From: a virus
Length of the DNA: 41,515 nt
IMG/VR virus record: IMGVR_UViG_3300037488_001432
Span: 1-41,515 of that record
Strand: one strand, 5' to 3'
The notes under the pieces were generated by a model. It had not been told where the DNA came from. It made no database searches and worked only from the letters and a program-made list of their open reading frames with translations. Numbering within the stretch: position 1 is the first letter of the stretch; every line of letters starts with the position of its first letter. The position numbers and the translations under genes were made by a program. Positions 165-17,049 of the stretch are shown in pieces.

Positions 165-700
165 TTCGTGGCGCCTACTTTCTGATGTTGTGATATTGCC
201 TCGTTGGGCGTCACTACATCGCGGCCGATGCCGTTCAGCAACTCCCGCAATTCGTTGATGTACTCGCGCTTGCACCATCCTTCAATCTCGCAGATCGTCA
301 GATCGACCAAGATGTCAGCAAGCAGGCGTTCCTTGAACTTCTGTCTCGCCAGTTCGTTAACCGTCCTGGCTTGGCTGGCGTGAAACACAAAGGCGCCGGG
401 CGCGCTTGGCACCTGCGGTGGCGCTTCGTTGCTGCTGGCGCGGATCGGCTCGTCAAACCTCAGTTGCCCCTGGGGTTGCAGCACGCGCAGCAACGCCCGC
501 TTCCCGCCGCGCAGAACGCTTTTCCCGTCCGTGACGAACGCATGCCCGGCCAGCGGAGAGCCCACAGATGAATCAAGCCTCCACCCTTGCGGCATTTTCT
601 CCAGCAGCAGCCAGCCCCGGTATCGCGGTGCGCCGTGCTGCCCAACTGACGGTTCGAGCGGACCCTCAACAGGCCGGCAAGTTTGTGGCGCTTCGGTCAT
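161..700 (-). CDS. Hypothetical protein with N-terminus encoded by an attC site
   Basis: A 179-residue frame whose first ATG (700-698) lies inside the loop of the attC at 640-742, so about the first 20 residues are read from the recombination site. The middle (RYRGWLLLEKMPQGWRLD, then a Gly/Lys-rich VLRGGKRALLRVL) looks like a compact domain and begins upstream of the next in-frame ATG (595). That supports initiation at or near 700, although no strong ribosome site precedes it. The C-terminus is helical and charged. The stop overlaps the next gene's ATG. I do not recognise a function. It is the outermost gene pair of the left cassette arm. Confidence 0.7.
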   Translation of the reverse strand: MTEAPQTCRPVEGPLEPSVGQHGAPRYRGWLLLEKMPQGWRLDSSVGSPLAGHAFVTDGKSVLRGGKRALLRVLQPQGQLRFDEPIRASSNEAPPQVPSAPGAFVFHASQARTVNELARQKFKERLLADILVDLTICEIEGWCKREYINELRELLNGIGRDVVTPNEAISQHQKVGATK

Positions 701-742
701 GTGTTCGTGGCCTGTTGGGGTCCGCTCAACCTAGCGTTAGGC
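640..742 (-). other. attC: attC site L1 (long, 103 bp, contains a start codon)
   Basis: On the minus strand it runs from R'' GCCTAAC (742-736) to R' GTTGGGC (646-640). The arms AGCGGACCC-CAACAGGCC and GGCCTGTTG-AGGGTCCGCT pair over about 20 bp, and the 3' arm carries an extra unpaired C after GGTT plus one further unpaired base. The stop of the upstream gene (737-739) is inside R''. The loop contains the ATG of the downstream gene. Confidence 0.88.
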
Positions 743-979
743 CGCAGGGCTCACCACCAAGGGCGGGGCCTGCCATCCTTGCTGCACCAACCATTCGTGG
801 TACTGATCCAGTGCCCACAAGCAGCAGTCCGCATCGGTGCCGCTCTCATCCGGTGACAGCGGCCCGAACTGCTCGCGCGCGATGTCTTTGCGCTTAATCA
901 TCGGAGACAGCGGCACAGTGCCAAGTAAGTCAGAAGACCCATCCGCCTTGACGCCAATCAAATTCATTGTTTCTCTCAT
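737..979 (-). CDS. Cassette-encoded hypothetical protein (80 aa)
   Basis: Small acidic protein beginning MRETMNLIGVKADGSSDLL, with a Trp-rich C-terminal third (CCLWALDQYHEWLVQQGW). The start ATG at 979-977 is preceded by a GAGGGAAA ribosome site. The leader between the preceding attC R' and this start (980-1008) is almost identical to the leader of the cassette gene at 5026-5280. The TAA stop is part of the R'' of attC L1. No family recognised. It forms a single-gene cassette between attC L2 and L1. Confidence 0.8.
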   Translation of the reverse strand: MRETMNLIGVKADGSSDLLGTVPLSPMIKRKDIAREQFGPLSPDESGTDADCCLWALDQYHEWLVQQGWQAPPLVVSPAA

Positions 980-1007
980 GCTTTTTCCCTCTAGTTTTCT
1001 GATCCAG

Positions 1008-1068
1008 GCCTAACCAAGCGCTGTAGCCGACGCCCGCAAGCGTGCGCGGCTAACCGCCAACGTTATGC
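1008..1068 (-). other. attC: attC site L2
   Basis: Minus-strand R'' GCATAAC (1068-1062) and R' GTTAGGC (1014-1008), 61 bp. The arms around TAGCCGCGCACGC and GCGTCGGCTA pair with an unpaired A in the 3' arm. It is nearly identical to attC L7 at 4050-4111 and to the truncated site at 5311. The TAG of the upstream gene (1050-1052) lies inside the 5' arm. Confidence 0.88.
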
Positions 1069-1328
1069 CGCTTTTCAGCAGCATAGTCCTCCGCCAATTT
1101 GGCGGCTTCAGGATGGCGCATCCAATGGAGAACCAACCTGTTCAGCGCAACGTCACATGCGGCGCAAATCGGGCGGTAGTTGTTCCCGTCGCTGCAAATC
1201 TGCCACTGGAAGGCGGCAGGCTCTGAGCATCGCACGCATCGCAGGCGGCGCACGCCTGACTCTGTGTAAGGCTCGCGGCGGCGGCGCTGCCAGTAACCTG
1301 AAACAAGGTCTTTCAGTTGCGCTTTCAT
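1050..1328 (-). CDS. Small Cys-rich, possibly zinc-binding protein
   Basis: A 92-residue protein starting MKAQLKDLVSGYWQRRR. The ATG at 1328 overlaps the TGA of the preceding gene by four bases (ATGA). It has two CxxC pairs (CVRC and CAAC) with another Cys between, and a segment CAACDVALNRLVLHWMRHPEA that resembles the C-terminal half of small phage HNH or zinc-finger proteins. I cannot see a full HNH catalytic His-Asn-His set, so nuclease activity is only a possibility. The reading frame ends inside attC L2, so its last few residues (HNVGG) are encoded by the recombination site. It shares a two-gene cassette with the gene at 1325-1567. Confidence 0.72.
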   Translation of the reverse strand: MKAQLKDLVSGYWQRRRREPYTESGVRRLRCVRCSEPAAFQWQICSDGNNYRPICAACDVALNRLVLHWMRHPEAAKLAEDYAAEKRHNVGG

Positions 1329-1567
1329 TCTGGCTGCCCTTGGGCTGCGCGTTGTTCCGGCCCGTCCAAGTGCCACAGCATGCGGCCCACAAACCAATAA
1401 GCGCCACAGCCGCTGCCCGGCGTCAGGTACGTGCGCGCGTCGGACTGCATCGCGCAAATCAACGCATCTAGGCGCTCCACCTTTTGCTCAAGCTGCCTAA
1501 CCCGCAATTCGACCTGACCCGCCACGGCAGGCAGGCTTTGTGCCTCGGTCTTAATGTCTTTGTCCAT
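1325..1567 (-). CDS. Hypothetical protein starting inside an attC loop (80 aa)
   Basis: The ATG at 1567-1565 sits in the loop of attC L3 behind an AAAGGAAAGAC ribosome site. The first about 25 residues (MDKDIKTEAQSLPAVAGQVE and onward) are read through the 3' arm of the attC. A short coiled-coil-like segment (QLEQKVERLDALICAMQ) follows, then a Gly/Trp-rich tail. The stop overlaps the next gene's start (ATGA at 1325-1328), so the two genes form one operon-like cassette. Function unknown. Confidence 0.75.
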   Translation of the reverse strand: MDKDIKTEAQSLPAVAGQVELRVRQLEQKVERLDALICAMQSDARTYLTPGSGCGAYWFVGRMLWHLDGPEQRAAQGQPE

Positions 1568-1611
1568 GTCTTTCCTTTCGCCGCAGCGGTCAGGTCAATT
1601 TCACGTTAGGC
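1495..1611 (-). other. attC: attC site L3 (long, 117 bp, contains a start codon)
   Basis: Minus-strand R'' GCCTAAC (1611-1605), R' GTTAGGC (1501-1495). The arms AATTGACCTGACCGC and GCGGGTCAGGTCGAATT pair almost perfectly with an unpaired C and A in the 3' arm. The long loop holds a ribosome site and the ATG of the gene at 1325-1567. The TAA of the upstream gene (1606-1608) is in R''. Confidence 0.9.
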
Positions 1612-1860
1612 CTTTTGCGCCGCTGCATACAGCCGCTTCAGGCTGGGGTGGCAGCGCAGCTCGTCTGGCAGGTCGTTCCATGCGGCCACCAGGTCTTCGC
1701 GGCCAGCTTGCATCCGCTCGCGCTCTTCTTTGCGCGCCATCTCGGCAATCGTGGCCGCAAAAATCACGCACGATGTCAGCGTCACATCCTCTTTTCGCTT
1801 CGGGTCTGGCCATTCGAAGAAATGTTCCGCCTCTTCAGTAATTCGCTTTTGGTCAATCAT
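1606..1860 (-). CDS. Cassette-encoded hypothetical protein (84 aa)
   Basis: Starts MIDQKRITEEAEHFFEW. It is highly charged and mostly helical, with an Arg/Glu-rich centre (ARKEERERMQAGRED) and a C-terminal LRCHPSLKRLYAAAQ segment. The ATG at 1860-1858 is preceded by GGAGCGAAAGA, a good ribosome site. The stop codon forms part of R'' of attC L3. The gene fills one cassette between attC L4 and attC L3. It looks like a soluble cytosolic protein; I do not recognise a family. Confidence 0.78.
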   Translation of the reverse strand: MIDQKRITEEAEHFFEWPDPKRKEDVTLTSCVIFAATIAEMARKEERERMQAGREDLVAAWNDLPDELRCHPSLKRLYAAAQKA

Positions 1861-1879
1861 TCTTTCGCTCCGTTTACAG

Positions 1880-1939
1880 GCCTAACCAAGCCCATCAACC
1901 CGCGACTGCTGCGCAGCGGGGTTATGGGCACCGTTAGGG
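1880..1939 (-). other. attC: attC site L4
   Basis: Minus-strand R'' CCCTAAC (1939-1933), R' GTTAGGC (1886-1880), 60 bp. The arms GCCCATAACCCCGCTGC and GCAGTCGCGGGTTGATGGGC pair with unpaired C and A on the 3' arm. It follows the Dam-type methyltransferase stop by four bases. Confidence 0.9.
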
Positions 1940-1943
1940 CACT

Positions 1944-2960
1944 TCAAAACAGCGCCTCCTGCACCGCGCGCTCTGGCGCACAGTGCGGGCTGCACCACAA
2001 AGTTTCCGAGGCGCTGTTCTCCACCGCCTCATCGGTCACTGCATAGCCCTTGCGCGCCGTCCAGGCCCGCAGGTGCCAGCCGTTCGCCAGTAGCGCGTCA
2101 TGCTCGCCAGCATGGCCGCAAAGCACGATCCGCAGCTTCTTGTCCTGTCCGTTGGCTGCGCACCAGGCGCGCACCTTGTCGGCAAGGTCGCCACCCACGC
2201 CGCCAGCCGCGTAGTCCATCGCGCCTTTCGTGTAAGGCGGGTCGAGAAACACCCCAGTCGTGCCGTGCCGTGTCGTCACGCTTTCGGTCAGCACGCGCTG
2301 CCAGTCGCCCACCGCAACCCGCACGCCCCGCGTGCGATCCTGCAGCGCGCCGAACCACTCATAGATGTAGTGCGTGCGGCCCTGGCCGGCATCGCCCAGG
2401 TGCGGCAGTTTCCGGTTCACGCCCCGGCCGGCATCGCCCAGGTGCGGCAGTTGCCGGTTCACGCCCCGGCCGGCATCGCCCAGGTGCGGCAGTTGCCGGC
2501 CGTCCACCAGCTTCTCGCCGTCATGCACCCACGGCCCGGTGCCGCTGCACCAGCCGCTGCCGATCCAGTTGCACGCGCCCCAGCACCACCAGCCCGCAAT
2601 CTTGGCGTCGTAATAGTCTGGGTCGGCGTGCAGCCGTTCCAGCAGGCCAGGCGCATGGCGTACCAGCCACGAGTGCCGCGCAAACAGGTCGGCCTCGTTG
2701 GTGGGCCAGTCGGTGTGCTTTGCCACGTCGGCCGCATCCAGCGACACCGCGCGCCAGAAGTTCGCCACAAAGCCGTCCGCGTCATTGATGGTTTCAACCT
2801 TGCCCACGTTGGGGCGCCCAAGCAGCATTGCCGCCGAGCCCGCGAACGGTTCTACGTAGTTCTCAGGGTCGCCCAGCGCGCCCCACACTGTCTCGCACGC
2901 CAGCGACTTTCCGCCAAAGTACGGGAACGGTGCTGCCAAGGTGCCTGCTACAGATTTCAC
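1944..2960 (-). CDS. Dam-like D12-class DNA adenine N6-methyltransferase
   Basis: Transfers methyl from SAM to adenine in DNA; in phages such enzymes commonly protect the genome from host restriction. Visible motifs: FPYFGGKS near residues 12-19 (SAM-binding motif I of the D12 family) and DPPY near residue 240 (catalytic motif IV). The GTG start at 2960-2958 was chosen because GGAGAACCA precedes it; a longer TTG-started frame would begin inside attC L5. The target-recognition region contains a 14-residue unit (QLPHLGDAGRGVNR) nearly three times in tandem, encoded by a 42-bp repeat. It forms a single-gene cassette between attC L5 and L4. Family call secure; target site unknown. Confidence 0.9.
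   Translation of the reverse strand: MKSVAGTLAAPFPYFGGKSLACETVWGALGDPENYVEPFAGSAAMLLGRPNVGKVETINDADGFVANFWRAVSLDAADVAKHTDWPTNEADLFARHSWLVRHAPGLLERLHADPDYYDAKIAGWWCWGACNWIGSGWCSGTGPWVHDGEKLVDGRQLPHLGDAGRGVNRQLPHLGDAGRGVNRKLPHLGDAGQGRTHYIYEWFGALQDRTRGVRVAVGDWQRVLTESVTTRHGTTGVFLDPPYTKGAMDYAAGGVGGDLADKVRAWCAANGQDKKLRIVLCGHAGEHDALLANGWHLRAWTARKGYAVTDEAVENSASETLWCSPHCAPERAVQEALF
2384..2500. repeat. 42-bp tandem repeat inside the Dam-like gene (about 2.8 copies)
   Basis: Units begin at 2384, 2426 and 2468, each starting GGCCGGCATCGCCCAGGTGC on the plus strand; the third is incomplete. The period is a multiple of three, so copy-number change alters protein length without a frameshift (14 residues per unit). 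Confidence 0.9.
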
Positions 2961-2986
2961 TGGTTCTCCATCTATCGTCGGAAGTG

Positions 2987-3044
2987 CCCTAACACGCAAT
3001 TCGAGGCGACGGCCTACGGCCGCGCCTCAATTGCAACGTTAGGG
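2987..3044 (-). other. attC: attC site L5
   Basis: Minus-strand R'' CCCTAAC (3044-3038), R' GTTAGGG (2993-2987), 58 bp. The arms GCAATTGAGGCGCGGCC and GGCCGTCGCCTCGAATTGC pair perfectly apart from the unpaired C and A in the 3' arm. The last residues of the upstream oxygenase-like gene are encoded in the 5' arm. Confidence 0.92.
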
Positions 3045-3436
3045 CGCACCTGATACGCGCACCCGCGCCATACGCGCTTTGAAATTACGCTGTGCAGCAC
3101 GCTGTCTTTAAACACCACAAAGTCACCTGCCCGCATGCGCTTTGCTTCCGTCCCAACTTGCAAGAACAGTTCCTCAAATCTTGGTAGGTCTACTACCCAG
3201 AACACAGCCGCGTAACGGCGCGGGTATTTGCCAGCGCCTACCCAGTCGTCTGTGTGCGGCTCCACGCAGCGCATGCGCAAGGCAACTCCTGTGGTGGCGT
3301 CATGCCTCCACTTGCTTCCGCAAGGCACGCAGCCAAAGTCCTGCGGCAGCGTCGTTGCAAACGAGTCGTCCGCAATCTCTCGCACCATGCGCCGCTGCGC
3401 TGGCGTCGGGTGTTGTGTTCCGGCCTCAAAAATCAT
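3014..3436 (-). CDS. 2OG-Fe(II) oxygenase-like protein
   Basis: A 140-residue protein starting MIFEAGTQHPTPAQRR. It carries PHTDDW (HxD, His61 and Asp63), a Tyr/Phe/Trp-rich strand (AAVFWVVD), the GDFVVFKDSVLHSV segment with a second His at 115, and a distal Arg (YQVRP). This order fits the HxD...H...R iron and 2-oxoglutarate site of the prolyl-4-hydroxylase/AlkB-like superfamily. The ATG at 3436 follows GGTGAAGAACAC; an upstream TTG at 3472 would start inside attC L6. The C-terminal tail (VAIEARP) is read from attC L5. Substrate unknown. Single-gene cassette. Confidence 0.7.
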   Translation of the reverse strand: MIFEAGTQHPTPAQRRMVREIADDSFATTLPQDFGCVPCGSKWRHDATTGVALRMRCVEPHTDDWVGAGKYPRRYAAVFWVVDLPRFEELFLQVGTEAKRMRAGDFVVFKDSVLHSVISKRVWRGCAYQVRPNVAIEARP

Positions 3437-3454
3437 GTGTTCTTCACCAGTGCG

Positions 3455-3511
3455 CCCTAACTGTCGGTTCAAGCGGACGCCGTGCCGGCGCCGCTTAACC
3501 TGGCGTTAGGC
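3455..3511 (-). other. attC: attC site L6
   Basis: Minus-strand R'' GCCTAAC (3511-3505), R' GTTAGGG (3461-3455), 57 bp. The arms GGTTAAGCGGCGCC and GGCGTCCGCTTGAACC pair with unpaired C and A, the classic attC arrangement. The stop of the upstream gene (3469-3471) lies inside the 3' arm. Confidence 0.92.
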
Positions 3512-3732
3512 GGCATCGGATGAACCGGCTCAAACCAATCAGCGCAATACCAAGTCGTCGGTGTACCGTGCTTGAGCGGCGGCTGAACACGGAACATCAC
3601 ACCGCTTTGGCTGTGCCCATGCCAACGATCACGGTCAACTGCCACAATTTGCACGCGTGCCATTGGCCCGGCGCCGTTGAAGTCGGTCAAAGCCCAATCT
3701 CCAACCGCAAGCTGTCGGCTTTGCAGACCCAT
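3469..3732 (-). CDS. Cassette-encoded hypothetical protein (87 aa)
   Basis: Starts MGLQSRQLAVGDWALTDFNG and has alternating hydrophobic strands (ARVQIVAVDRDRWHG, GVMFRVQPPLKHG) and WYCADWFEPV. This suggests a small beta-barrel fold, like many short phage proteins of unknown role. The ATG at 3732 is preceded by GGGGGAG, and the stop of the upstream gene is three bases away, so both genes form one cassette. The last about 16 residues are encoded by attC L6, with the TGA deep in its 3' arm. Confidence 0.78.
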   Translation of the reverse strand: MGLQSRQLAVGDWALTDFNGAGPMARVQIVAVDRDRWHGHSQSGVMFRVQPPLKHGTPTTWYCADWFEPVHPMPPNARLSGAGTASA

Positions 3733-3735
3733 CGC

Positions 3736-4026
3736 CTACTCCCCCGCCCGCTTCTTCCAACCGGAAGCAAGTAAGGCCAACAGTTCGTTGTCATCGCCAC
3801 CGCGCAAAAGCTGATCGTGCGCGTTGGTGCAAATCTGGCGCAAGCGCTCAAGCTCATCAAGCGCCACGCCAAGTGCAGCAACACACCCGGACGGCGCGCA
3901 ACCTTGCATGCTTGCGTGCCACCAATTCGCGGCTTCAGCAGGTGTGCGCGTGTCCAGCCCGTAGTTGATGCGCCAGCATTCAATCGTTGATTGCTGAATC
4001 GGCTCAATGTCGTGCGTTTCGCTCAT
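3736..4026 (-). CDS. Cassette-encoded hypothetical protein (96 aa)
   Basis: Starts MSETHDIEPIQQSTIECWRI. It is a helical, soluble protein with the segments TPAEAANWWHASMQGC, a DELERLRQICTNAHDQLLRGG helix and DNELLALLASGWKKR. The ATG at 4026-4024 follows GAAATGAAAGGTAAAC (ribosome site AAAGG). It is the first gene of a two-gene cassette bounded by attC L7 upstream and L6 downstream. No function recognised. Confidence 0.78.
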   Translation of the reverse strand: MSETHDIEPIQQSTIECWRINYGLDTRTPAEAANWWHASMQGCAPSGCVAALGVALDELERLRQICTNAHDQLLRGGDDNELLALLASGWKKRAGE

Positions 4027-4049
4027 GTTTACCTTTCATTTCAAATGCC

Positions 4050-4111
4050 GCCTAACCGGGCCGCTGTAGCCGACGCCCGCAAGCGTGCGCGGCTAACCGC
4101 CAACGTTATGG
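4050..4111 (-). other. attC: attC site L7
   Basis: Minus-strand R'' CCATAAC (4111-4105), R' GTTAGGC (4056-4050), 62 bp. The central 48 bases match attC L2 almost exactly (GCTGTAGCCGACGCCCGCAA and the following arm, plus strand). The TAA stop of the gene at 4106-4285 is inside R''. Confidence 0.88.
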
Positions 4112-4285
4112 CGCAGCGCGCTTTGCCGCACGTTCGCGGCGTCGAGCCAGCTTTGCAGCGTGCTCACGGATCGCTTCGACATCATCCGGGTGCGCCCAAA
4201 GGTTCGTCACCGGCACCAGGCCGGCAGCGATGCGCCGGGCTTTCAGATCGGCCTGGCGCTCTGCGTTGGTCTTGGCGGGACTCAT
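4106..4285 (-). CDS. Small basic RHH-like protein, family A (59 aa)
   Basis: Starts MSPAKTNAERQADLKARR, then a short strand-helix-helix-like segment (VTNLWAHPDDVEAIREHAAK) and a Lys/Arg-rich tail. Two paralogues occur in this genome (6542-6706 and 12961-13161), each the downstream gene of a promoter-led module. The layout suggests a small DNA-binding protein of the ribbon-helix-helix type; this is inference from shape. The ATG at 4285 overlaps the stop of the previous gene (ATGA). The stop lies in R'' of attC L7. Confidence 0.72.
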   Translation of the reverse strand: MSPAKTNAERQADLKARRIAAGLVPVTNLWAHPDDVEAIREHAAKLARRRERAAKRAAP

Positions 4286-4689
4286 ACGTTGTCGTAGGCT
4301 GTGCGCCGAATTTCCCAAAGCACATCCGGCACAGCCGGCCCGGTGCTGGCGTCGTGCGCCATGTCGCCAATTTGATGCAGCACTTCACGCAGCCGGTCGG
4401 CGTCACTGTTGGGCGGTGGTCCCACGTACAGCGCAACAGTCGCAATATCCGGGTTGTGGTGCGGCTCAGAGAACAACATGGTGATGCGGCCGTTCGGCAA
4501 CTGCCACCCATACGCCACAGGATCGGCGGGTGCTTCTCCGTGCGGCTCAGCGGCAACAGCCATCGCAGCTTTGTAGCCGGCTTCAAAGGCAGCTTCTATC
4601 CAATGCTCCGTTGTCTTGATAGCGCCTGTTTCTTTGGCCTCCGCGCGCCAAAGTTCCATTTCAAAAGCCGCTCGGCTTGCGGCTTCCAT
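4282..4689 (-). CDS. Hypothetical protein, module family B (135 aa)
   Basis: Starts MEAASRAAFEMELWRAEAKE. The C-terminal 40 residues (from DADRLREVLHQIGDMAHDAS to the end) are almost identical to those of the right-arm paralogue at 16202-16489, while the N-terminal parts differ. This implies a shared C-terminal domain with swapped N-termini. A central AYGWQLPNGRITMLFSEP motif looks like a short beta domain. Its ATG (4689) overlaps the upstream TAA by one base (TAATG). It is the middle gene of a three-gene cassette. Function unknown. Confidence 0.78.
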   Translation of the reverse strand: MEAASRAAFEMELWRAEAKETGAIKTTEHWIEAAFEAGYKAAMAVAAEPHGEAPADPVAYGWQLPNGRITMLFSEPHHNPDIATVALYVGPPPNSDADRLREVLHQIGDMAHDASTGPAVPDVLWEIRRTAYDNV

Positions 4690-4871
4690 TACGCGGCCTC
4701 GATGATCATGCGGTCGGTGCCATCGGGGTTGTAGCCCTTCAGGATGGTGATGGCAAACAGGTCGGCAAAGTCTTCGTGCAAGGCGCCGGTCTTGTAGGCT
4801 GCGGCAAAAACATCGAAGAACGTTGAGATGTCGGCGGCGGTGTTGTTGACGTAATGGATGCTGGTGTTCAT
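4689..4871 (-). CDS. Conserved 60-aa protein, module family C (left copy)
   Basis: Starts MNTSIHYVNNTAADISTFFD and ends DRMIIEAA. It differs from the right-arm copy (16020-16202) at only two residues, while most of the roughly 13 nucleotide differences between them are silent. This indicates purifying selection on the protein. The ATG at 4871 has a strong GGAGAGCAAC ribosome site. A sigma70-like promoter with a palindrome lies 31-59 bases upstream. First gene of a three-gene cassette. Family not recognised. Confidence 0.85.
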   Translation of the reverse strand: MNTSIHYVNNTAADISTFFDVFAAAYKTGALHEDFADLFAITILKGYNPDGTDRMIIEAA

Positions 4872-4901
4872 GTTGCTCTCCGTTTCGGTTGGTGTGCTTT
4901 C

Positions 4902-4930
4902 ATTGTGCGCCACCGTTAGCACTAACGCAA
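4902..4930 (-). promoter_or_regulatory. Cassette promoter with CGTTAG-N2-CTAACG operator
   Basis: -35 TTGCGT (4930-4925), 17-bp spacer, -10 CACAAT (4907-4902). The inverted repeat CGTTAG-TG-CTAACG (4927-4914) overlaps the -35 and spacer. It is the same design as the promoter at 7093-7121. It lies inside a cassette, between attC L8 and the family C gene. Confidence 0.65.
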
Positions 4931-4968
4931 GCACTATTTGCACGCACACATCGCGTCCCCCACCAGCG

Positions 4969-5024
4969 CCATAACCCACGCTCAAACGGACGCCGTACCG
5001 GCGCCGTTTAGCTCAGCGTTAGGC
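4969..5024 (-). other. attC: attC site L8
   Basis: Minus-strand R'' GCCTAAC (5024-5018), R' GTTATGG (4975-4969), 56 bp. The arms GCTAAACGGCGCC and GGCGTCCGTTTGAGC pair with unpaired bases as in attC L6, to which it is related. Confidence 0.9.
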
Positions 5025-5025
5025 C

Positions 5026-5280: not shown

Positions 5281-5310
5281 CTCAAATACTCCTTTAGTTT
5301 TCTGATCCAG

Positions 5311-5346
5311 GCCTAACCGGTCCGCTGTAGCCGACGCCCCCAAGCG
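5311..5346 (-). other. attC: Truncated attC (left-arm inner boundary)
   Basis: R' GTTAGGC (5317-5311) followed by the 3' arm GCTGTAGCCGACGCCC (plus strand), as in attC L2 and L7. The sequence diverges at about 5350, with no 5' arm and no R''. It marks the junction between the leftward core operon and the cassette array. Confidence 0.75.
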
Positions 5347-5430
5347 TGCCGACCCATTGGCATCCATCACATGTTTCGAGCAGACCCGCAACAGCGGGGT
5401 GCGTTGGTTCGGTCGTTGGTTTTTGCTCGG

Positions 5431-5595: not shown

Positions 5596-5601
5596 AGCCC
5601 T

Positions 5602-6876: not shown

Positions 6877-6877
6877 T

Positions 6878-11233: not shown

Positions 11234-11240
11234 GGATGAC

Positions 11241-12343: not shown

Positions 12344-12459
12344 TTTACCTGCTGGCTGCATGCGCAGTGAGAGCGTATTCGCATTCCTCAATAGCCCGGC
12401 TTGCTATCGGGCCAGCAGACCATAACGTTTTGGTAACCAGGAGCCAACGCGATGACTGA
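12340..12459 (+). CDS. Possible small ORF bridging core and cassette array (39 aa)
   Basis: The ATG overlaps the gp157 stop (ATGA) and the frame runs MIYLLAACAVRAYSHSSIAR to a TGA at 12457. It overlaps the start of the next gene by eight bases. Codon content is ordinary. The frame passes through a lone R''-like CCATAAC (12420-12426). It could be a real coupled gene or fortuitous. Confidence 0.35.
   Translation: MIYLLAACAVRAYSHSSIARLAIGPADHNVLVTRSQRDD
12420..12440 (+). other. attC: Partial attC (right-arm inner boundary)
   Basis: CCATAACGTTTTGGTAACC (12420-12438) matches the R'' and 5' arm of attC R4 (13830 onward). It is not followed by a matching 3' arm or R'. It marks the start of the right-hand cassette array, mirroring the truncated site at 5311. 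Confidence 0.55.
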
Positions 12460-12565
12460 CAGAAAACCCGGCGAGCTAAGCGACGGTGAGCTGTTGGCGC
12501 TGAGCCGCGCCGCGTTCGCGGTGGAATATGACCCCGCCGAGGTTCGAGCGCAGAAACGCGCCTAA
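12452..12565 (+). CDS. Cassette-encoded mini-protein (37 aa)
   Basis: Starts MTDRKPGELSDGELLALSRA and ends VRAQKRA; acidic then basic, probably one helix pair. The ATG at 12452 follows AGGAGCCAACGC, a good ribosome site. The TAA is part of R'' of attC R1. Position, ribosome site and stop-in-attC support it despite its length. Function unknown. Confidence 0.65.
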   Translation: MTDRKPGELSDGELLALSRAAFAVEYDPAEVRAQKRA

Positions 12566-12622
12566 CGTCGAAGTTAAGGCCGCTTGCTGTAAGCAAGTCG
12601 GGCCTTGAACGCCCCGTTAGGC
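12560..12622 (+). other. attC: attC site R1
   Basis: R'' GCCTAAC (12560-12566), R' GTTAGGC (12616-12622), 63 bp. The arms GTTAAGGCCGCTTGC and GCAAGTCGGGCCTTGAAC pair with unpaired bases in the 3' arm. Confidence 0.9.
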
Positions 12623-12660
12623 GGCTTCAATTTGATGCTGAAAATAGTTTTAAATAGCGC

Positions 12661-12689
12661 TTGCGTTACCGGAAACGTGGCGCTACACT
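12661..12689 (+). promoter_or_regulatory. Cassette promoter
   Basis: -35 TTGCGT (12661-12666), 17-bp spacer, -10 TACACT (12684-12689). The spacer begins TACCGGAAACGTGGCGC, which resembles the spacer of the promoter at 4902-4930 (GGTGGCGC next to the -10) but with a decayed palindrome (CGTTaccggaAACG). Confidence 0.65.
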
Positions 12690-12718
12690 GAAGGCACTGA
12701 AGCAACCGGAGAAGCTAA

Positions 12719-12964
12719 ATGACAATGGCCCTTGGAACCGTTTTGCCCACCGCCGAAATCTTGGCGCGCGGCGACGCACACGCCGCCTGGCTTGCAGGCC
12801 AGCAGCACAAAGCCGGCGCCGCCCTCAACGTTTGCGCAGCGCGCACTGTTGGCGGCGAAACCCGCTACTACAAAACATCGACGAAATACGCGGTAATTTC
12901 CAGAGGCATGCAGGTTCGGTGGTTTGAAGTCCGCGCCGATGGTGATTACCCTGTTCGCGGGTGA
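12719..12964 (+). CDS. Cassette-encoded hypothetical protein (81 aa)
   Basis: Starts MTMALGTVLPTAEILARGDA. It is an Ala-rich helical half (HAAWLAGQQHKAGAALNVCA) followed by a beta-like half (TRYYKTSTKYAVISRGMQVR, WFEVRADGDYPVRG). The ATG at 12719 follows CCGGAGAAGCTAA and lies 30 bases after a cassette promoter. It overlaps the next gene (GTGA). First gene of a two-gene, promoter-led cassette. Unknown function. Confidence 0.8.
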   Translation: MTMALGTVLPTAEILARGDAHAAWLAGQQHKAGAALNVCAARTVGGETRYYKTSTKYAVISRGMQVRWFEVRADGDYPVRG

Positions 12965-13161
12965 GCCCAGCCAAGACGACAAGCGAGCGCGTGCAGGCTA
13001 TGCGCTCTGCCCGCAATTCTCTGGGCTTGAAGCGCCTAGAGCTTTACGCGCACCCGGAAGACTGGCCGGCAATCAAAGCACTGGCCGAGAAGTTGCAAAG
13101 AAAGCGGGCGCGCGCCTTGCCGCAAAACAAGACGCCTAACGTTCGAGCTAAGCGCGTTTGA
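12961..13161 (+). CDS. Small basic RHH-like protein, family A (GTG start)
   Basis: A 66-residue paralogue of 4106-4285 and 6542-6706, beginning (V/M)SPAKTTSERVQAMRSARN, then LKRLELYAHPEDWPAIKALA and a Lys/Arg-rich tail. The GTG at 12961 overlaps the upstream TGA. The last about 10 residues (PNVRAKRV and neighbours) are encoded by attC R2, with the TGA in its 5' arm. Its recurrent position as the last gene of a promoter-led module suggests regulation of that module; this is inference. Confidence 0.75.
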   Translation: MSPAKTTSERVQAMRSARNSLGLKRLELYAHPEDWPAIKALAEKLQRKRARALPQNKTPNVRAKRV

Positions 13162-13203
13162 CACGGTACTCCGTGGCAAATCCGCTTGAGCGAGGGGTTA
13201 GGC
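13134..13203 (+). other. attC: attC site R2
   Basis: R'' GCCTAAC (13134-13140), R' GTTAGGC (13197-13203), 70 bp. The arms CGAGCTAAGCGCGTTTG and CAAATCCGCTTGAGCG pair with unpaired C and A. An inner hairpin CACGGTACTCCGTG closes the loop. Confidence 0.9.
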
Positions 13204-13228
13204 CCGCTGTTCGCAACCGAGAAAGACT

Positions 13229-13489
13229 ATGAGCACCTGGAAAGAACTGCTTGAAGACGCTCTGAAGGAGCGCGGCGAGGAACTGGCCGACCTTGAAGCC
13301 AACACGCTGACGGACGCCGACATGGCGAAGGAGTTCGACTCTGGCTATGGCAGCACTGAGGGCCTGACGTTCACGGCCTGGAGCGCAAAGACCGTTTACT
13401 TTCCTATCTGCTATGACGGCGCCGAGTGGGTTGGAAGCGTTTCTCGCCACCCAAACGGCAAGCCGACAGAACACCAGGGCGGCGGCTGA
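13229..13489 (+). CDS. Cassette-encoded acidic protein (86 aa)
   Basis: Starts MSTWKELLEDALKERGEELA. An acidic N-terminal helix is followed by a beta-rich half (GLTFTAWSAKTVYFPICYDG, AEWVGSVSRHP). This pattern resembles small acidic phage proteins. The ribosome site is GAGAAAGACT before the ATG at 13229. The stop is seven bases before R'' of attC R3. A DNA-mimic or anti-host role is conceivable but not evidenced. Confidence 0.78.
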   Translation: MSTWKELLEDALKERGEELADLEANTLTDADMAKEFDSGYGSTEGLTFTAWSAKTVYFPICYDGAEWVGSVSRHPNGKPTEHQGGG

Positions 13490-13496
13490 ATTGCGG

Positions 13497-13583
13497 GCCT
13501 AACGTGGAGTTCAGCGGCGTGCCCGCTGGACATTCGAGTAACCACCCTGCTGGCGGCGCGTCCGCTGGAACGCAGGGTTAGGC
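13497..13583 (+). other. attC: attC site R3
   Basis: R'' GCCTAAC (13497-13503), R' GTTAGGC (13577-13583), 87 bp. The arms GTTCAGCGGCGTGCC and GGCGCGTCCGCTGGAAC pair with unpaired C and A in the 3' arm. Confidence 0.9.
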
Positions 13584-13612
13584 GTCACTGGCGCCGAAGC
13601 GGAAAGACGGTG

Positions 13613-13828
13613 ATGAACCAAGACCCGGATTCGTGGGAAGCCAACGCGCAGCACATGCTGGAACGATGCCCGTACACCGTATGGCAGCGCCCAGGCGGCG
13701 GACCCGTGGACCTGAAGTCCACGCTGGTGGTGACGTTCCAGGCTATGCAAATGCGCCTTGAAGGGCATCCGATGTATGCGCGCAAGCTGACGCCAGAACC
13801 CGAGACGTTTGCGGGCCTGATTCCGTGA
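13613..13828 (+). CDS. Cassette-encoded hypothetical protein (71 aa)
   Basis: Starts MNQDPDSWEANAQHMLERCP, then YTVWQRPGGGPVDLKSTLVV and a Met-rich helix. The ATG at 13613 follows GGAAAGACGGTG; a GTG three bases earlier is an alternative. The stop is one base before R'' of attC R4. No family recognised. Confidence 0.75.
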   Translation: MNQDPDSWEANAQHMLERCPYTVWQRPGGGPVDLKSTLVVTFQAMQMRLEGHPMYARKLTPEPETFAGLIP

Positions 13829-13829
13829 C

Positions 13830-13916
13830 GCCTAACGTTTTGGTAACCGGCGCCCGCGCGCTGAAGTAATAGACCGGCTGGACGCTGCGGGGCGTCCGGT
13901 TGACCTAATGTTCGGC
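13830..13916 (+). other. attC: attC site R4
   Basis: R'' GCCTAAC (13830-13836), R' GTTCGGC (13910-13916), 87 bp. The arms GGTAACCGGCGCCC and GGGGCGTCCGGTTGACC pair with unpaired C and A. R' deviates at one base from GTTAGGC. Confidence 0.87.
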
Positions 13917-13944
13917 TGTAGCCGGAGATAAAGGAGTGTTTGAG

Positions 13945-14151
13945 ATGAAGATCAACGTTATCGGGATGATCCTGAACAACGCCGGCCGCAAGTGCTTTGA
14001 CGGCGCGGTACTGGATGACAACGGCAACCCATTGCCGGCCGCTGATTCGCTGCACGCGATGATCATGGAATATGCCAAGGTGATCAACGGCGGCACATCC
14101 GATTGGGTGGCGACATCGCGCGAAGTGCTCAAGTCTGACCCTGCCCCATGA
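13945..14151 (+). CDS. Cassette-encoded hypothetical protein (68 aa)
   Basis: Starts MKINVIGMILNNAGRKCFDG and continues AVLDDNGNPLPAADSLHAMI, then a helix and SREVLKSDPAP. The ATG at 13945 follows AAAGGAGTGTTTGAG, the same ribosome-site leader seen before the membrane-protein cassette at 5026-5280. The stop is next to R'' of attC R5. Function unknown. Confidence 0.78.
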   Translation: MKINVIGMILNNAGRKCFDGAVLDDNGNPLPAADSLHAMIMEYAKVINGGTSDWVATSREVLKSDPAP

Positions 14152-14152
14152 A

Positions 14153-14249
14153 GCCGAACGTTCGAGCTAACCTGGACCCAACGGCGTGACCATGCTGGAC
14201 AACCACACTGCTGATGCCGTTGGGGCTCAGGTTGAGCGAGGGGTTGGGC
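14153..14249 (+). other. attC: attC site R5
   Basis: R'' GCCGAAC (14153-14159), R' GTTGGGC (14243-14249), 97 bp. The arms GCTAACCTGGACCCAACGGC and GCCGTTGGGGCTCAGGTTGA (continuing GC) pair over about 20 bp with unpaired C and A. Confidence 0.88.
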
Positions 14250-14282
14250 GGCTGGTGAACGAAGCTACGAAAGGAGCCCGCT

Positions 14283-14447
14283 GTGGCTGAAACAATGACA
14301 ACGGCAATGCTATGGACGATGGCCCTGTTGGGCGCCTGGAACGGCGTAAACATGATCGGCCGCCTCTACTACCGGGCGCCGTGGTGGCCCTATGCGTGGC
14401 ACGTTTTCAGCGGGGCATGGGCCGCGTTCATTCTGTGGGCACGCTGA
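14283..14447 (+). CDS. Cassette-encoded membrane mini-protein (54 aa, GTG start)
   Basis: GTG at 14283 with AAAGGAG eight bases upstream. Encodes (V/M)AETMTTAMLWTMALLGAW, NGVNMIGRLYYRAPWWPYAW and HVFSGAWAAFILWAR. Two hydrophobic Trp-rich stretches suggest a small inner-membrane protein with two spans. The stop is four bases before R'' of attC R6. No other frame fits this cassette, which supports the call. Function unknown. Confidence 0.72.
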   Translation: MAETMTTAMLWTMALLGAWNGVNMIGRLYYRAPWWPYAWHVFSGAWAAFILWAR

Positions 14448-14451
14448 AGCC

Positions 14452-14509
14452 GCCCAACGTGGCCGCTAACCGGCAGCCGTAGGCTGTCCGGTTGAGTGGC
14501 GGGTTATGC
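14452..14509 (+). other. attC: attC site R6
   Basis: R'' GCCCAAC (14452-14458), R' GTTATGC (14503-14509), 58 bp. The arms GCCGCTAACCGGCAGCC and GGCTGTCCGGTTGAGTGGC pair with unpaired C and A. Confidence 0.9.
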
Positions 14510-14535
14510 GTGGTTAACGAAGCGAAGGAAAGACG

Positions 14536-14769
14536 ATGAGCGACTTTTGCAGAACCGCCGAGCAGAGAAAGGCCGCGAAGGAACACCGCTGCACCTATTG
14601 CGGCGAAGGCATCCCGAAGGGCGAGGTGTACCAAGAGCAAACGGGCGTTTGGGACGGTGCGGCATTCCGCAACAAGTTTCACGCCGAGTGCTTCCAGGCG
14701 CTGTGCGATGAGGGCGAAGGCGAGTTCACGCCGTACAGCGAAACACGGCCCGAGCGGGCTGACGCCTAA
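14536..14769 (+). CDS. Cassette-encoded zinc-finger-like protein (77 aa)
   Basis: Starts MSDFCRTAEQRKAAKEHRCT. CTYCGEGIPKGEVYQEQTGV provides a CxxC, and FRNKFHAECFQALC provides HxxC with a further Cys, a treble-clef or LIM-like zinc site. The C-terminus is acidic. The ribosome site is GAAGGAAAGACG. The TAA lies in R'' of attC R7. A single-zinc adaptor or DNA-binding role is likely; the target is unknown. Confidence 0.78.
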   Translation: MSDFCRTAEQRKAAKEHRCTYCGEGIPKGEVYQEQTGVWDGAAFRNKFHAECFQALCDEGEGEFTPYSETRPERADA

Positions 14770-14850
14770 CGTTGTATTGAGCGGCGCGCGCACCGGCCTG
14801 GACGGAGTGTGACCATGCCGTTGCGCGTCCGCTCGAATACGGGGTTAGGC
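14764..14850 (+). other. attC: attC site R7
   Basis: R'' GCCTAAC (14764-14770), R' GTTAGGC (14844-14850), 87 bp. The arms GTATTGAGCGGCGCG and CGCGTCCGCTCGAATAC pair perfectly except for the unpaired C and A. Confidence 0.93.
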
Positions 14851-14869
14851 CCCACATGGAGAAGCAAGC

Positions 14870-15097
14870 ATGAAAGACAGTGATTTGATTGCAGAAGTGG
14901 CCCGCGTGTGGGTTGACGGCGGCGGCGATGCTGAAGGCATTGCATGGAGCGCCAGCAGCCTACAGGTCGCGGTCATGGTGGAGATTGACCGCCGCAGGGA
15001 GGATGCCGAAGCGCTTGCATCGCTGCGAGCAGTCCGCGAACAGTGGGAGGCGGAGAGACACGCCCGCCTGACAGCCAATGGTGGCCTTGGGGCCTAA
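14870..15097 (+). CDS. Cassette-encoded hypothetical protein (75 aa)
   Basis: Starts MKDSDLIAEVARVWVDGGGD, then AWSASSLQVAVMVEIDRRRE and a long charged helix (EALASLRAVREQWEAERHAR). The ATG at 14870 follows TGGAGAAGCAAGC. The TAA lies in R'' of attC R8. Soluble, helical, unknown function. Confidence 0.78.
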   Translation: MKDSDLIAEVARVWVDGGGDAEGIAWSASSLQVAVMVEIDRRREDAEALASLRAVREQWEAERHARLTANGGLGA

Positions 15098-15160
15098 CGG
15101 TAGCGTTGAGCCGGGCACAACGGTACGCCGTTGTGACTCGGCTCGAACGCGGGGTTAGGT
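15092..15160 (+). other. attC: attC site R8
   Basis: R'' GCCTAAC (15092-15098), R' GTTAGGT (15154-15160), 69 bp. The arms GCGTTGAGCCGGGCACAAC and GTTGTGACTCGGCTCGAACGC pair with unpaired C and A; loop GGTACGCC. Positions 15093-15159 are identical to attC R9. Confidence 0.93.
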
Positions 15161-15191
15161 TTCACTGGTTCCGAAGCGAGAAGGACGACGA

Positions 15192-15842
15192 ATGGCAGAG
15201 AAAGTAGTGATCGGGAACGCGGAACTGTGGCACGGGGACTGCCGCGATGTGCTGCCTCTGCTGCCTGCGTTTGACTTGGTGCTGACGGACCCGCCGTATG
15301 GGGTGCTGATGAACGGAAACCCAGGGCGCCGCGCGAAGCTGACCGAACAGATTGCCGGCGATGCTGTCGCGCCGGACGTAGCCTGGATGGCGGACCACAA
15401 GGCGATTGTCTGGGGCGGCAACAACTTCGGCTTGCCGCGCTCGACGGGCTGGCTGGTGTGGGACAAGTGCCACCCCGATGAATCGCAGCACTCGCAGGCA
15501 GAGCTGGCTTGGACGAACGTAGTGCGGACGGTGCGGCACTACCGCGAGGCTTACCACGGGTTCATGCGCCAGCGCGACGGCTGGTTCCACCCGACACAGA
15601 AGCCGCCTGGCTTGATGCGCTGGTGCATCGGGCTGACGGATGCAGCGTGCGTTTTTGATCCTTACATGGGGTCAGGCACAGCCGGAATAGCGGCGATGGA
15701 GACAGGACGCCGGTTCATCGGCGTGGAGATCCATCGCCCGTATTTCGACATCGCCTGTCGGCGCATCGAACAAGCGCAGGCGCAAGGCCAACTGATACAG
15801 CCCGAACCCTCGCGCGAATGCGTGCAGGAAGGGCTGTTGTGA
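15192..15842 (+). CDS. DNA N4/N6-methyltransferase (N6_N4_Mtase family)
   Basis: A 216-residue enzyme that methylates the exocyclic amino group of adenine or cytosine in DNA. Catalytic DPPYG is at residues 33-37 and the SAM-binding DPYMGSGTAG begins near residue 156, so the order is DPPY first, then FxGxG-like, as in beta-class enzymes. AIVWGGNNFG and WFHPTQKPPGLMRW are further family signatures. Start ATG 15192 follows AGAAGGACGACGA. The stop is next to attC R9. As a single-gene cassette between two identical attC sites, it looks recently duplicated or shuffled. Target sequence unknown. Confidence 0.93.
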   Translation: MAEKVVIGNAELWHGDCRDVLPLLPAFDLVLTDPPYGVLMNGNPGRRAKLTEQIAGDAVAPDVAWMADHKAIVWGGNNFGLPRSTGWLVWDKCHPDESQHSQAELAWTNVVRTVRHYREAYHGFMRQRDGWFHPTQKPPGLMRWCIGLTDAACVFDPYMGSGTAGIAAMETGRRFIGVEIHRPYFDIACRRIEQAQAQGQLIQPEPSRECVQEGLL

Positions 15843-15843
15843 A

Positions 15844-15912
15844 ACCTAACGGTAGCGTTGAGCCGGGCACAACGGTACGCCGTTGTGACTCGGCTCGAAC
15901 GCGGGGTTAGGG
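15844..15912 (+). other. attC: attC site R9
   Basis: R'' ACCTAAC (15844-15850), R' GTTAGGG (15906-15912), 69 bp. The interior is identical to attC R8; only the outermost base of each core differs. Confidence 0.93.
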
Positions 15913-15958
15913 CGCTGGTGGAGAAACGCGGCTAGGTTTGCGTGTTACAAAATAGTTG

Positions 15959-15986
15959 TTGACGCTGGAGGTTGCTGTGCTACAGT
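15959..15986 (+). promoter_or_regulatory. Cassette promoter (right copy of the three-gene module)
   Basis: -35 TTGACG (15959-15964), 16-bp spacer, -10 TACAGT (15981-15986). The surrounding leader (GCGCTGGTGG after the attC R', CGGAGAGCA before the ATG) matches the left-arm module, but the CGTTAG palindrome is absent here. Confidence 0.7.
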
Positions 15987-16019
15987 AACGACATCGCAAC
16001 ACACCAAACGGAGAGCACC

Positions 16020-16202
16020 ATGAACACCAACATCCACTACGTCAACAACACCGCCGCCGACATCTCCAAGTTCTTCGATGTCTTCGCCGCCGCCTACAAG
16101 ACCGGCGCCCTGCACGAAGACTTCGCTGACCTGTTCGCCATCACCATCCTGAAGGGCTACAACCCCGACGGCACCGACCGCATGATCATCGAGGCCGCTT
16201 AA
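16020..16202 (+). CDS. Conserved 60-aa protein, module family C (right copy)
   Basis: Starts MNTNIHYVNNTAADISKFFD; 58 of 60 residues match the left-arm copy (4689-4871). The two DNA copies are inverted relative to each other and differ at about 13 of 183 bases, mostly in third positions. The ATG at 16020 has a CGGAGAGCACC ribosome site. It overlaps the next gene by one base (TAATG). Function unknown, but its conservation and own promoter suggest a useful product. Confidence 0.87.
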   Translation: MNTNIHYVNNTAADISKFFDVFAAAYKTGALHEDFADLFAITILKGYNPDGTDRMIIEAA

Positions 16203-16489
16203 TGAAAGCCGCAGAAGTGCGCGAAGATGGTGCTGTTCCGGTGGCGTGGATCACCAATGACGAGTATTCGTCAGGATCGTACTCACCGCCATACCGAGAA
16301 AAACGGCTTTCATGGCATAGGCCAGCCAATAACGGCACACCTCTATATACCGCCGCACTAACCGACGACGCTGACAGACTGCGTGAAGTTTTGCGCCGCA
16401 TTGGCGACATGGCGCACGACGCCAGCACCGGGCCAGCCGTGCCGGATGTGCTTTGGGAAATCAGGCGCATGGCCTACGACGAAGTATGA
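16202..16489 (+). CDS. Hypothetical protein, module family B (95 aa)
   Basis: Starts MKAAEVREDGAVPVAWITND. Its last 40 residues (DADRLREVLRRIGDMAHDAS and on) nearly match the left-arm paralogue 4282-4689, whereas the first half is different and shorter. PVAWITNDEYSSGSYSPPYR resembles short domains of unknown function found in other phage mini-genes. Coupled upstream (TAATG) and downstream (ATGA). Unknown function. Confidence 0.8.
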   Translation: MKAAEVREDGAVPVAWITNDEYSSGSYSPPYREKRLSWHRPANNGTPLYTAALTDDADRLREVLRRIGDMAHDASTGPAVPDVLWEIRRMAYDEV

Positions 16490-16671
16490 GCACCGACAAG
16501 AGCAAAGGCGGACGCCCGCCAGCCCCGCCCGGCCAGCGCCGGGTGAACGTGCCGCTGCGCCTGCCTGAATGGCTGGTGCAGTGGATGGCAGAGCAGCCGG
16601 AGACGCCTGCGGAGTTGATAGAAGCCGCACTGCTGAAGGCGCACAAGCTGCGCCCGCCGCGTGCGCCCTAA
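16486..16671 (+). CDS. Ribbon-helix-helix-like mini-protein (61 aa)
   Basis: Starts MSTDKSKGGRPPAPPGQRRV. NVPLRLPEWLVQWMAEQPET and PAELIEAALLKAHK fit a strand followed by two helices, as in CopG/Arc-type DNA-binding proteins. It occupies the position of the family A gene in the left-arm module, so the third slot is always a small basic protein. The TAA lies in R'' of attC R10. Regulatory role inferred. Confidence 0.72.
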   Translation: MSTDKSKGGRPPAPPGQRRVNVPLRLPEWLVQWMAEQPETPAELIEAALLKAHKLRPPRAP

Positions 16672-16767
16672 CGATAGCTTCAGCGGGCCTGAACGGCCCG
16701 CGAGAAAGGTGACACATGAGTGAAACTTTGGAGGCCGTTCGGGCTCCGTTGCAAGCGCCAGTTAGGC
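16666..16767 (+). other. attC: attC site R10 (long, 102 bp, contains a start codon)
   Basis: R'' CCCTAAC (16666-16672), R' GTTAGGC (16761-16767). The arms GCTTCAGCGGGCCTGAACGG and CCGTTCGGGCTCCGTTGC (continuing AAGC) pair over about 22 bp with two mismatches and unpaired G and A on the 3' arm. The loop holds AAAGGTGACAC and the ATG at 16716. Confidence 0.9.
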
Positions 16768-17048
16768 ATCCCGCCACAAAGCGCGAGATGGTGCTTTACC
16801 ACGCTACGACACCCAAGAAAGTGCAGCACTACCACGCAAGCGGCAGGATCATTGCACCGGTGCGCGGCTTCACGAGCCTACAGGCGGCGATGGCATGGGC
16901 ATGCAAAACAGGGCGCAGTGTGGTGCTGGCGGTGCAAGGCAAGGACTGCCACAAGTTGCCCGACCACCACAACCAGTTCGGCGAGGCGTGGTGGGTGGAT
17001 CACGATGTTTCGGCGTGGAAGTGCGTATTCTCGCCGAAGGATGCCTAA
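16716..17048 (+). CDS. Hypothetical protein starting inside an attC loop (110 aa)
   Basis: The ATG at 16716 follows AAAGGTGACAC, both within the loop of attC R10. Residues 1-17 (MSETLEAVRAPLQAPVR) are encoded by the attC 3' arm and R'. The remainder is KREMVLYHATTPKKVQHYHA, SGRIIAPVRGFTSLQAAMAW and a Trp-rich end (FGEAWWVDHDVSAWKCVF). YHATTP plus the downstream strands recall small ADP-ribosyltransferase-like or RNA 2'-phosphotransferase-like folds, but I cannot confirm this. Last gene of the right array; its TAA lies in a lone R''. Confidence 0.75.
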   Translation: MSETLEAVRAPLQAPVRHPATKREMVLYHATTPKKVQHYHASGRIIAPVRGFTSLQAAMAWACKTGRSVVLAVQGKDCHKLPDHHNQFGEAWWVDHDVSAWKCVFSPKDA

Positions 17049-17049
17049 C
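17043..17049 (+). other. attC: Unpaired R'' core (right-arm outer boundary)
   Basis: GCCTAAC at 17043-17049 overlaps the stop of the last cassette gene exactly as in the complete sites. No complementary 3' arm or R' follows in the next 200 bases. Confidence 0.55.

Follow-up and report, generated by a model that had tools for sequence, protein, structure and literature searches.

Reversed-polarity integron-type cassette arrays in an integrase-less phage genome

Results

The window, that is, the whole stretch of DNA analysed here, is IMG/VR record IMGVR_UViG_3300037488_001432 from position 1 to 41,515 (41,515 nucleotides), which looks complete because its ends overlap by about 133 bp. It codes for TerL, portal, scaffold, capsid, Hc3 and other virion proteins, and these virion and packaging genes identify it as a phage; Erf-like, NinB and Gam-like recombination proteins are also encoded. 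Megablast found no cultured-phage relatives of the backbone, and a query with the replication protein returned one short relative. No integron integrase or tyrosine recombinase was found in the window (no match to TIGR02249 or PF00589), in agreement with the first-pass annotation. The intI gene that defines a complete integron is present in the viral contigs G026, G050, G051 and G052 and missing here; with 18 attC sites and no intI, the window fits the definition of a CALIN (at least two attC sites, intI absent nearby).

The 18 complete sites, 8 within 640-5024 and 10 within 12560-16767, are genuine attC sites. Covariance model (CM) R1, built solely from 38 bacterial integron attCs, recovered exactly these 18 (E values 1e-10 to 0.017) and nothing else in the window, and it found none in 13 non-array loci or in 265 kb of other phages. 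A scanner with a site threshold of 13 or above also returned 18 sites, all of them outside the core genome of the window; 40 dinucleotide shuffles averaged 0.25 sites, with 1 at most. Both methods thus confirm the number and places of the sites given earlier. By the scanner, TerL relatives other than the sister phage G014 carry no attC arrays. R''/R' boxes (RYYYAAC and GTTRRRY), L''/L' arms and a hairpin are present in 18 of 18 sites (CM R1), and the predicted bottom-strand folds exceed those of shuffles (z -0.9 to -8.6, most below -3). The arm sequences vary, yet the extra-helical bases and R boxes are conserved, and the extra-helical bases give each site a polarity that is reflected in a strong preference of the model for one strand (for example, 50.1 versus 19.6 bits at 3455).

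In array 1, the genes are on the minus strand and the attC polarity is plus; bit scores are those of CM R1 on the plus strand. The last gene (161-700, 179 aa), an ORF with coding signal, starts within attC 640-742 (35.5 bits). It is followed inwards by an 80-aa gene (737-979) whose stop codon TAA lies inside the core R box, attC 1008-1068 (46.1 bits), two cassette genes spanning 1050-1567 (1050-1328 and 1325-1567), attC 1495-1611 (40.4 bits), an 84-aa gene (1606-1860) and attC 1880-1939 (28.7 bits). The next cassette, 1933-3038 from crossover to crossover (plus), contains a D12-class adenine methyltransferase of 351 aa (1944-2999, minus; Pfam PF02086, E 1.6e-5); attC 2987-3044 (54.2 bits) comes next. 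A gene at 3014-3472 with a weak Asp/Arg hydroxylase or cupin match (Pfam E 1e-3, below the cut-off) precedes attC 3455-3511 (50.1 bits, and 19.6 on the minus strand), two genes spanning 3469-4026 (3469-3732 and 3736-4026) and attC 4050-4111 (35.5 bits). The array closes with a multi-gene cassette (4106-4985, minus), a diverged copy (83-85%) of the array 2 cassette 15850-16672, and attC 4969-5024 (44.9 bits); a truncated attC (R''-L'' half, 5311-5345, plus), recognized from the sequence, marks its inner end.

Array 2 has its genes on the plus strand and attC polarity minus, and its scores are those of CM R1 on the minus strand. From a truncated attC half at the inner end (about 12423-12445, minus, likewise read from the sequence), it runs through attC 12560-12622 (55.4 bits), cassette genes at 12719-13161, attC 13134-13203 (48.0 bits), a gene at 13229-13489, attC 13497-13583 (57.7 bits), a gene at 13610-13828, attC 13830-13916 (29.9 bits), a gene at 13936-14151, attC 14153-14249 (39.8 bits), a gene at 14283-14447 and attC 14452-14509 (56.4 bits). 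Beyond these lie a gene with a weak zinc-finger-like match (14536-14769; Pfam E 0.026, below the cut-off), attC 14764-14850 (49.7 bits, and 19.3 on the plus strand), a gene at 14870-15097, attC 15092-15160 (45.5 bits), an N6/N4 DNA methyltransferase (15192-15842; Pfam PF01555, E 6e-16) and attC 15844-15912 (44.0 bits). A multi-gene cassette (15850-16672, minus) has homologs in at least 10 other phage contigs; attC 16666-16767 (21.4 bits) contains the start codon of the next and last gene (16716-17048, 110 aa). Recognizable cargo is a minority, with DNA methyltransferases the commonest class, and PADLOC gave methyltransferase-type matches only (and defence-system namesakes) for ten window cargo proteins; the cassette methyltransferases probably act against restriction.

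Each outer edge carries a candidate attI, at 158-209 (plus; R box GTTGGGC at 203-209) on the promoter-distal end of array 1 and at 17043-17094 (minus; R box GCCTAAC at 17043-17049) on that of array 2. The array 1 edge is an inverted copy of 17040-17094 (80% over 55 bp) and lies where attC polarity predicts attI, so that an attI role of both edges may be proposed. BLAST of the edge against 369 bacterial genomes gave chance-level matches only, the exact edge pattern was absent from viral contigs, and the candidates are unlike the attI of IntI-encoding phages. Of the three partial attC copies reported at first, the half sites at 5311-5345 and about 12423-12445 stand, whereas the one at 17043 fits an attI-like edge better.

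All 18 window attCs point against their genes, as judged from both the extra-helical bases and the model strand, so the earlier view that the sites are oriented with their genes was wrong. None of the 16 scorable window cassettes is canonical (gene then attC, same polarity). The inversion extends to 251 of 252 callable cassettes on 73 viral contigs of IMG/VR, whereas bacterial genomes carrying that attC type have 147 of 158 cassettes in the canonical orientation (147:11); CM-called polarity agrees (viral 86:1 inverted, bacterial 75:4 canonical), and the class 1 integrons of R46 and R751, used as a scanner control, come out canonical. Read in gene direction, a phage cassette consists of attC, ribosome-binding site and gene or genes, the reverse of a bacterial cassette, and the stop codon often falls within the recombination core (RYYTAA|C). 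An open-licence literature library, which leaves out most subscription papers and bioRxiv, yielded no mention of reversed phage cassettes or of a virus-only IntI clade.

These proportions bear on the proposal that the phage acquired integron fragments from its host or the environment, that is, ordinary bacterial cassettes. The window attCs do resemble those of Burkholderiales integrons, with attC 13497-13583 sharing 94.6% identity with an attC of a Rubrivivax MAG (L313), and CALINs in phages have already been published (PMC9892861). However, the reversal is seen in every scorable cassette of the window and in almost all viral cassettes, and not in bacteria, the published TJE1 sites are canonical unlike those of the window, and phage-type arrays and 215 bacterial cassettes have no whole cassette in common, only attC arms or short stretches. 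We therefore regard a bacterial source as improbable, and the suggestion that the phage samples a host integron pool is not supported.

The cassettes are shared among viruses with exact borders. Window cassette 1933-3038, which is common to IntI-encoding viral contigs, is 93-95% identical to L429 and 87% to L428 (short or partial contigs; no structural gene was identified in the examined part of L429), and the homology starts at one G|TT crossover and stops at the other, where the adjoining attCs are unrelated. Crossover-bounded sharing was likewise seen for L190/L422 and L187/L188; homology to cassette 15850-16672 stops in many of the phage contigs at the crossover near 16673, and cassette 15192-15842 has a homologous cassette in G014 (blastn 71-86%). 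G|TT-bounded homology between unrelated attCs argues for site-specific exchange within a phage pool, and these comparisons support the notion that cassettes are swapped singly between phages. The earlier description of attC-type cassette arrays in an integrase-less phage is supported.

Alternatively, the arrays could be relics on which no integrase acts any more, maintained and reshuffled at similar attC repeats by the homologous recombination functions of the phage (Erf annealase, NinB). The lack of IntI in the window, which counts against our main explanation, and the presence of Erf-like, NinB and Gam-like proteins agree with this, as does the single cassette indel between L137 and L214, which is flanked by similar attCs. 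Exact G|TT borders between unrelated attCs are, however, unexpected from homologous recombination, and the extra-helical bases and R boxes have been kept although the arms differ; relic status thus appears unlikely, though it is the most plausible of the alternatives. The hairpins might also be fixed RNA or transcription elements (terminators or 5' UTR hairpins) without a recombination role, as the attCs lie directly upstream of genes and the first start codon falls inside the attC in 143 of 286 viral cassettes. But all attC hallmarks are retained, strand asymmetry included, an Rfam scan gave no match, the cassettes move as units and arrays are linked to intI; this very improbable reading is contradicted by the crossover-exact sharing.

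Many viral contigs code for an integron integrase, and 57 of 67 viral IntIs (57 distinct) form one virus-only clade beside IntI1. Their contigs have the layout intI-attI-attC with the cassette genes reversed: intI of the phage clade lies downstream of the cassette genes and reads in their direction, and conserved attI-like DNA lies directly upstream of viral intI. Of the IntI contigs that could be scored, 19 of 22 are phage-type. The enzymes retain the catalytic residues, and among solved structures 2A3V matches best. Most array-bearing records lack IntI, a point against our main explanation: of 50 such records, many of them fragments, 46 have no match above the cut-off. No close IntI of the virus-only clade was found among 50,697 cultured-phage records, and this absence may be why the clade was missed. 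It is scarcely credible that the viral contigs are misbinned bacterial integrons: some bacterial-type arrays do occur in IMG/VR (L454, L455), but such contigs fall outside the virus-only clade, IntI contigs G026, G050, G051, L406 and L422 carry terminase, capsid or tail genes, and the window has its own terminase, portal, scaffold, capsid and other virion genes.

Discussion

We read the arrays as a new, phage-specific integron variant and, with a probability of roughly 0.85, interpret the two arrays of the window as integron cassette arrays adapted to phage, with a pool common to phages and IntI supplied in trans. Integron integrases recombine attC as a folded bottom strand, which in these arrays is the cargo's coding strand, and join cassettes at G|TT; for the window sites such recombination is predicted, with the crossover-exact sharing as indirect support. 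Capture would take place at an attI on the outer side of an early operon, the end farthest from the promoter. A classical Pc would be unable to drive the cassette genes, which are directed towards attI. Owing to the reversed polarity, a captured cassette would be in sense with phage transcription on arrival, and we infer expression from the early operons. Since the window has no integrase, IntI would act on its sites in trans, with the host or another phage, resident or co-infecting, as its source; some phages of the shared pool encode their own virus-only IntI. The first-pass annotation had the phage depend on a host IntI; the need for an integrase from elsewhere holds, but its source could also be a phage.

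The own virus-only IntI of other array-bearing phages suggests that phages run a separate gene-swapping pool. It is likely, if somewhat less so than the reading of the window itself, that tailed phages keep their own integron system, with a virus-only IntI, a promoter-distal attI and a phage-only reversed pool, many of whose users are integrase-less. Polarity would separate the phage and bacterial pools, since cassettes passing from one to the other would not be expressed there, which suggests a reason for the two staying apart. The swapping of small accessory genes among phages is mostly ascribed to illegitimate or homologous recombination. The arrays point to a site-specific route with readable borders, by which cassettes can be traced from phage to phage at single-base resolution; they also make many small phage genes available for mining, together with a virus-only family of integrases testable with standard integron assays.

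Known phage systems resemble the window in part. In the part of PMC9892861 (Qi et al. 2023) used here, the phage CALINs TJE1, P12002L and PH101 are attC clusters without integrase, and 5 of 6 tested sites were recombined by IntI1; that part describes no virus-only IntI clade and no phage-to-phage cassette sharing. TJE1 is an integrase-less phage attC cluster like the window, but it has 3 sites, which are canonical relative to their genes. The same paper includes temperate phages with an integron integrase (Vibrio Va_90-11-286_p16 and Va_PF430-3_p42, Shewanella M16-3 and P1-like), whose IntIs share only 39-53% identity with the phage-clade IntI of G026. IntI1 is about 53% identical to the phage IntI and has the same catalytic residues, whereas the phage IntI belongs to a separate virus-only clade and, in contrast to the integrons of IntI1 and 2A3V, its gene is co-directional with the cassette genes. 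Class 1 and Burkholderiales chromosomal integrons have the same R and L boxes, extra-helical bases, hairpin and G|TT crossover as the window; in the window, however, cassette genes run opposite to attC and have the site on their upstream side, and they must be expressed from the other end of the array, not from a Pc at attI.

Results

The 18 sites in the window are genuine attC sites. A scanner that searches for R boxes and L arms found all 18 at its site threshold (score of at least 13) and zero in the core genome of the window, and 40 dinucleotide shuffles averaged 0.25 such sites and never gave more than 1. R1, a covariance model independent of the scanner, was built from an alignment of 38 bacterial integron attC sites, taken from the class 1 integrons of R46 and pPH1PALO530 as well as from chromosomal or MAG integrons; it recovered those 18 sites and no others in the window (E 1e-10 to 0.017), bearing out the identity proposed in the first-pass annotation, and at E<0.1 it gave no site in 13 loci of other phages. 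One bacterial attC, in a Rubrivivax MAG (L313, 746-837), is 94.6% identical to the window attC at 13497-13583, a likeness hinting at a Burkholderiales host or a shared attC stock.

The left arm of bacterial attC carries extra bases (TTCAAGCGGA versus TTAAGCGG), and these fix the polarity of a site. With the same scanner, attC and gene are co-directional (canonical) in the class 1 integrons on R46 and R751. The first-pass annotation had described the window sites as oriented with their genes; by both the scanner and R1, all 18 of 18 point against them, with genes on the minus strand and attC on the plus strand in array 1 (640-5024), and the converse in array 2 (12560-16767). For a wider survey, one attC half-site pattern gave 97 stretches of viral contigs and at least 120 of bacterial genomes, and gene strands were called by hexamer coding models. 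Viral cassettes were opposite to attC in 251 cases, the same in 1 and unclear in 29 (73 contigs, none canonical as a whole); bacterial cassettes, among the matches listed, were the same in 147, opposite in 11 and unclear in 57 (65 contigs), these counts being partly non-independent because near-copy contigs are included. When polarity was called by R1 instead, 86 viral cassettes were opposite versus 1 the same, and 75 bacterial cassettes, among the matches listed, were the same versus 4 opposite. Of 286 viral cassettes, 123 have their stop codon within the core R box and 143 have their first start codon within the upstream attC.

The window is a tailed phage, as established by its virion and packaging genes (terminase, portal, scaffold, major capsid, head closure and DNA transfer, 18.2-39.6 kb), and the ends of the 41,515-bp IMG/VR record overlap by ~133 bp. 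Its early region encodes Erf-like, NinB, Gam-like and O-like proteins, and the early genes run outwards from ~10 kb, leftwards into array 1 and rightwards into array 2. Two divergent arrays of opposite polarity are also present in the viral records G019 (L364-L366; 14334-15458 and 17494-21859) and L175 (769-3676 and 11130-12326), so this layout recurs. Provided that attC polarity means here what it does elsewhere, each array is predicted to have its attI at the outer end, furthest along the operon. The outer edges of the window arrays are inverted copies of one 55-bp sequence (158-212 versus 17040-17094, 80%), which we regard as candidate attI sites, and in many further viral arrays the outer edge resembles an attI simple site (such as CTAAAACACG/TTAGGC). 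The window edge had no match above chance in 369 bacterial genomes and is unlike the attI of IntI-encoding phages. A RuvC-like Holliday junction resolvase gene (17345-17755) starts ~250 bp past the candidate attI of array 2.

An integrase above the TIGR02249 cut-off was encoded in 4 of 50 array-bearing viral records. In G026, the early operon is followed on the same strand by seven attC-bearing cassettes and then intI; G051 and G052 share this layout, and G050 has the same polarity, its intI being interrupted by the contig end. A scan for IntI yielded 228 viral stretches, and 80 of them were retained; 22 had cassettes that could be scored (19 phage-type, 2 bacterial-type and 1 unclear), and attC polarity relative to intI was classical in nearly all scored contigs. 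In a quick tree of 109 IntI sequences, 67 of them viral, with SH-aLRT support and no bootstrap, 57 of the 67 formed a single clade without bacteria (SH-aLRT 94), adjoining a clade that contains IntI1 together with integrases from Rubrivivax and similar genomes; both bacterial-type contigs and one class 1 copy fell outside it. The phage IntIs retain the catalytic residues and match 2A3V, a solved integron integrase. The DNA directly upstream of clade intI is conserved (approximately NAAC-TTRAATTCRNCGACACC), as would be expected of attI. Terminase, capsid or tail genes are present on several IntI contigs; a separate phage integrase is additionally encoded by G026 and G051. Viral contig L454 (IMG/VR 3300027811_000005), outside the phage clade, has an unusual intI orientation, with IntI on the plus strand and canonical plus-strand attCs downstream. 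Virus Rctr41k (KX853513), from a DAMO enrichment culture, encodes an IntI-like protein (4686-5639) with 41% identity to phage-clade IntI.

Comparison of arrays shows that cassettes move between phages. The window methyltransferase cassette (1933-3038) has 93-95% identity to L429 and 87% to L428, two contigs that both encode phage-clade IntI. In a base-by-base alignment, homology runs from CGTTAGGG to CAACGTT, that is, between two G/TT crossovers, and the adjoining attC and gene sequences are unrelated on both sides; crossover-exact borders were likewise found in the pairs L190/L422 and L187/L188. For the multi-gene cassette of the window at 15850-16672, homologs were found in ten or more further phage contigs, many of the homologs ending at 16673, and array 1 contains a diverged copy of it. 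The sister phage G014 (TerL 87% identical) has 15 sites by R1, all reversed, and its cassettes differ from those of the window except for one homologous methyltransferase cassette. Phage-type arrays had no whole cassette in common with 215 bacterial cassettes, among the matches listed; the sole near-complete viral-bacterial match came from the bacterial-type contig L455.

Among 66 cassette proteins scanned, DNA methyltransferases were the class most often recognised (up to 11 proteins from five Pfam families), and the others included an RNA ligase-like protein, a YfbR-like nucleotidase, DUF5131 and Gp157; for most of the 66 there was no match. The window D12 methyltransferase gene contains ~42-bp tandem repeats (2386-2500), and its L429 counterpart is longer (393 versus 351 aa); the repeat copy number may vary.

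Discussion

We propose that IntI provided in trans would recombine the sites of the window, and that incoming cassettes would be added to the early operons at the end furthest from the promoter and be expressed from that position. The reversal may be explained by the layout of a phage operon, in which the promoter lies on the side opposite attI, so that only reversed genes would be expressed. If this explanation is true, reversal would also separate the phage from the bacterial cassette pool.

In 50,697 cultured-phage records, no close relative of the G026 IntI was found, the best matches being class 1 copies (53%), and the open-licence literature, preprints being outside its scope, yielded no report of reversed phage cassettes. 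Published work already describes attC clusters in phages and the activity of IntI1 on them (PMC9892861). The attC sites of phage TJE1 from that work are canonical by both tests, whereas those of the window are reversed.
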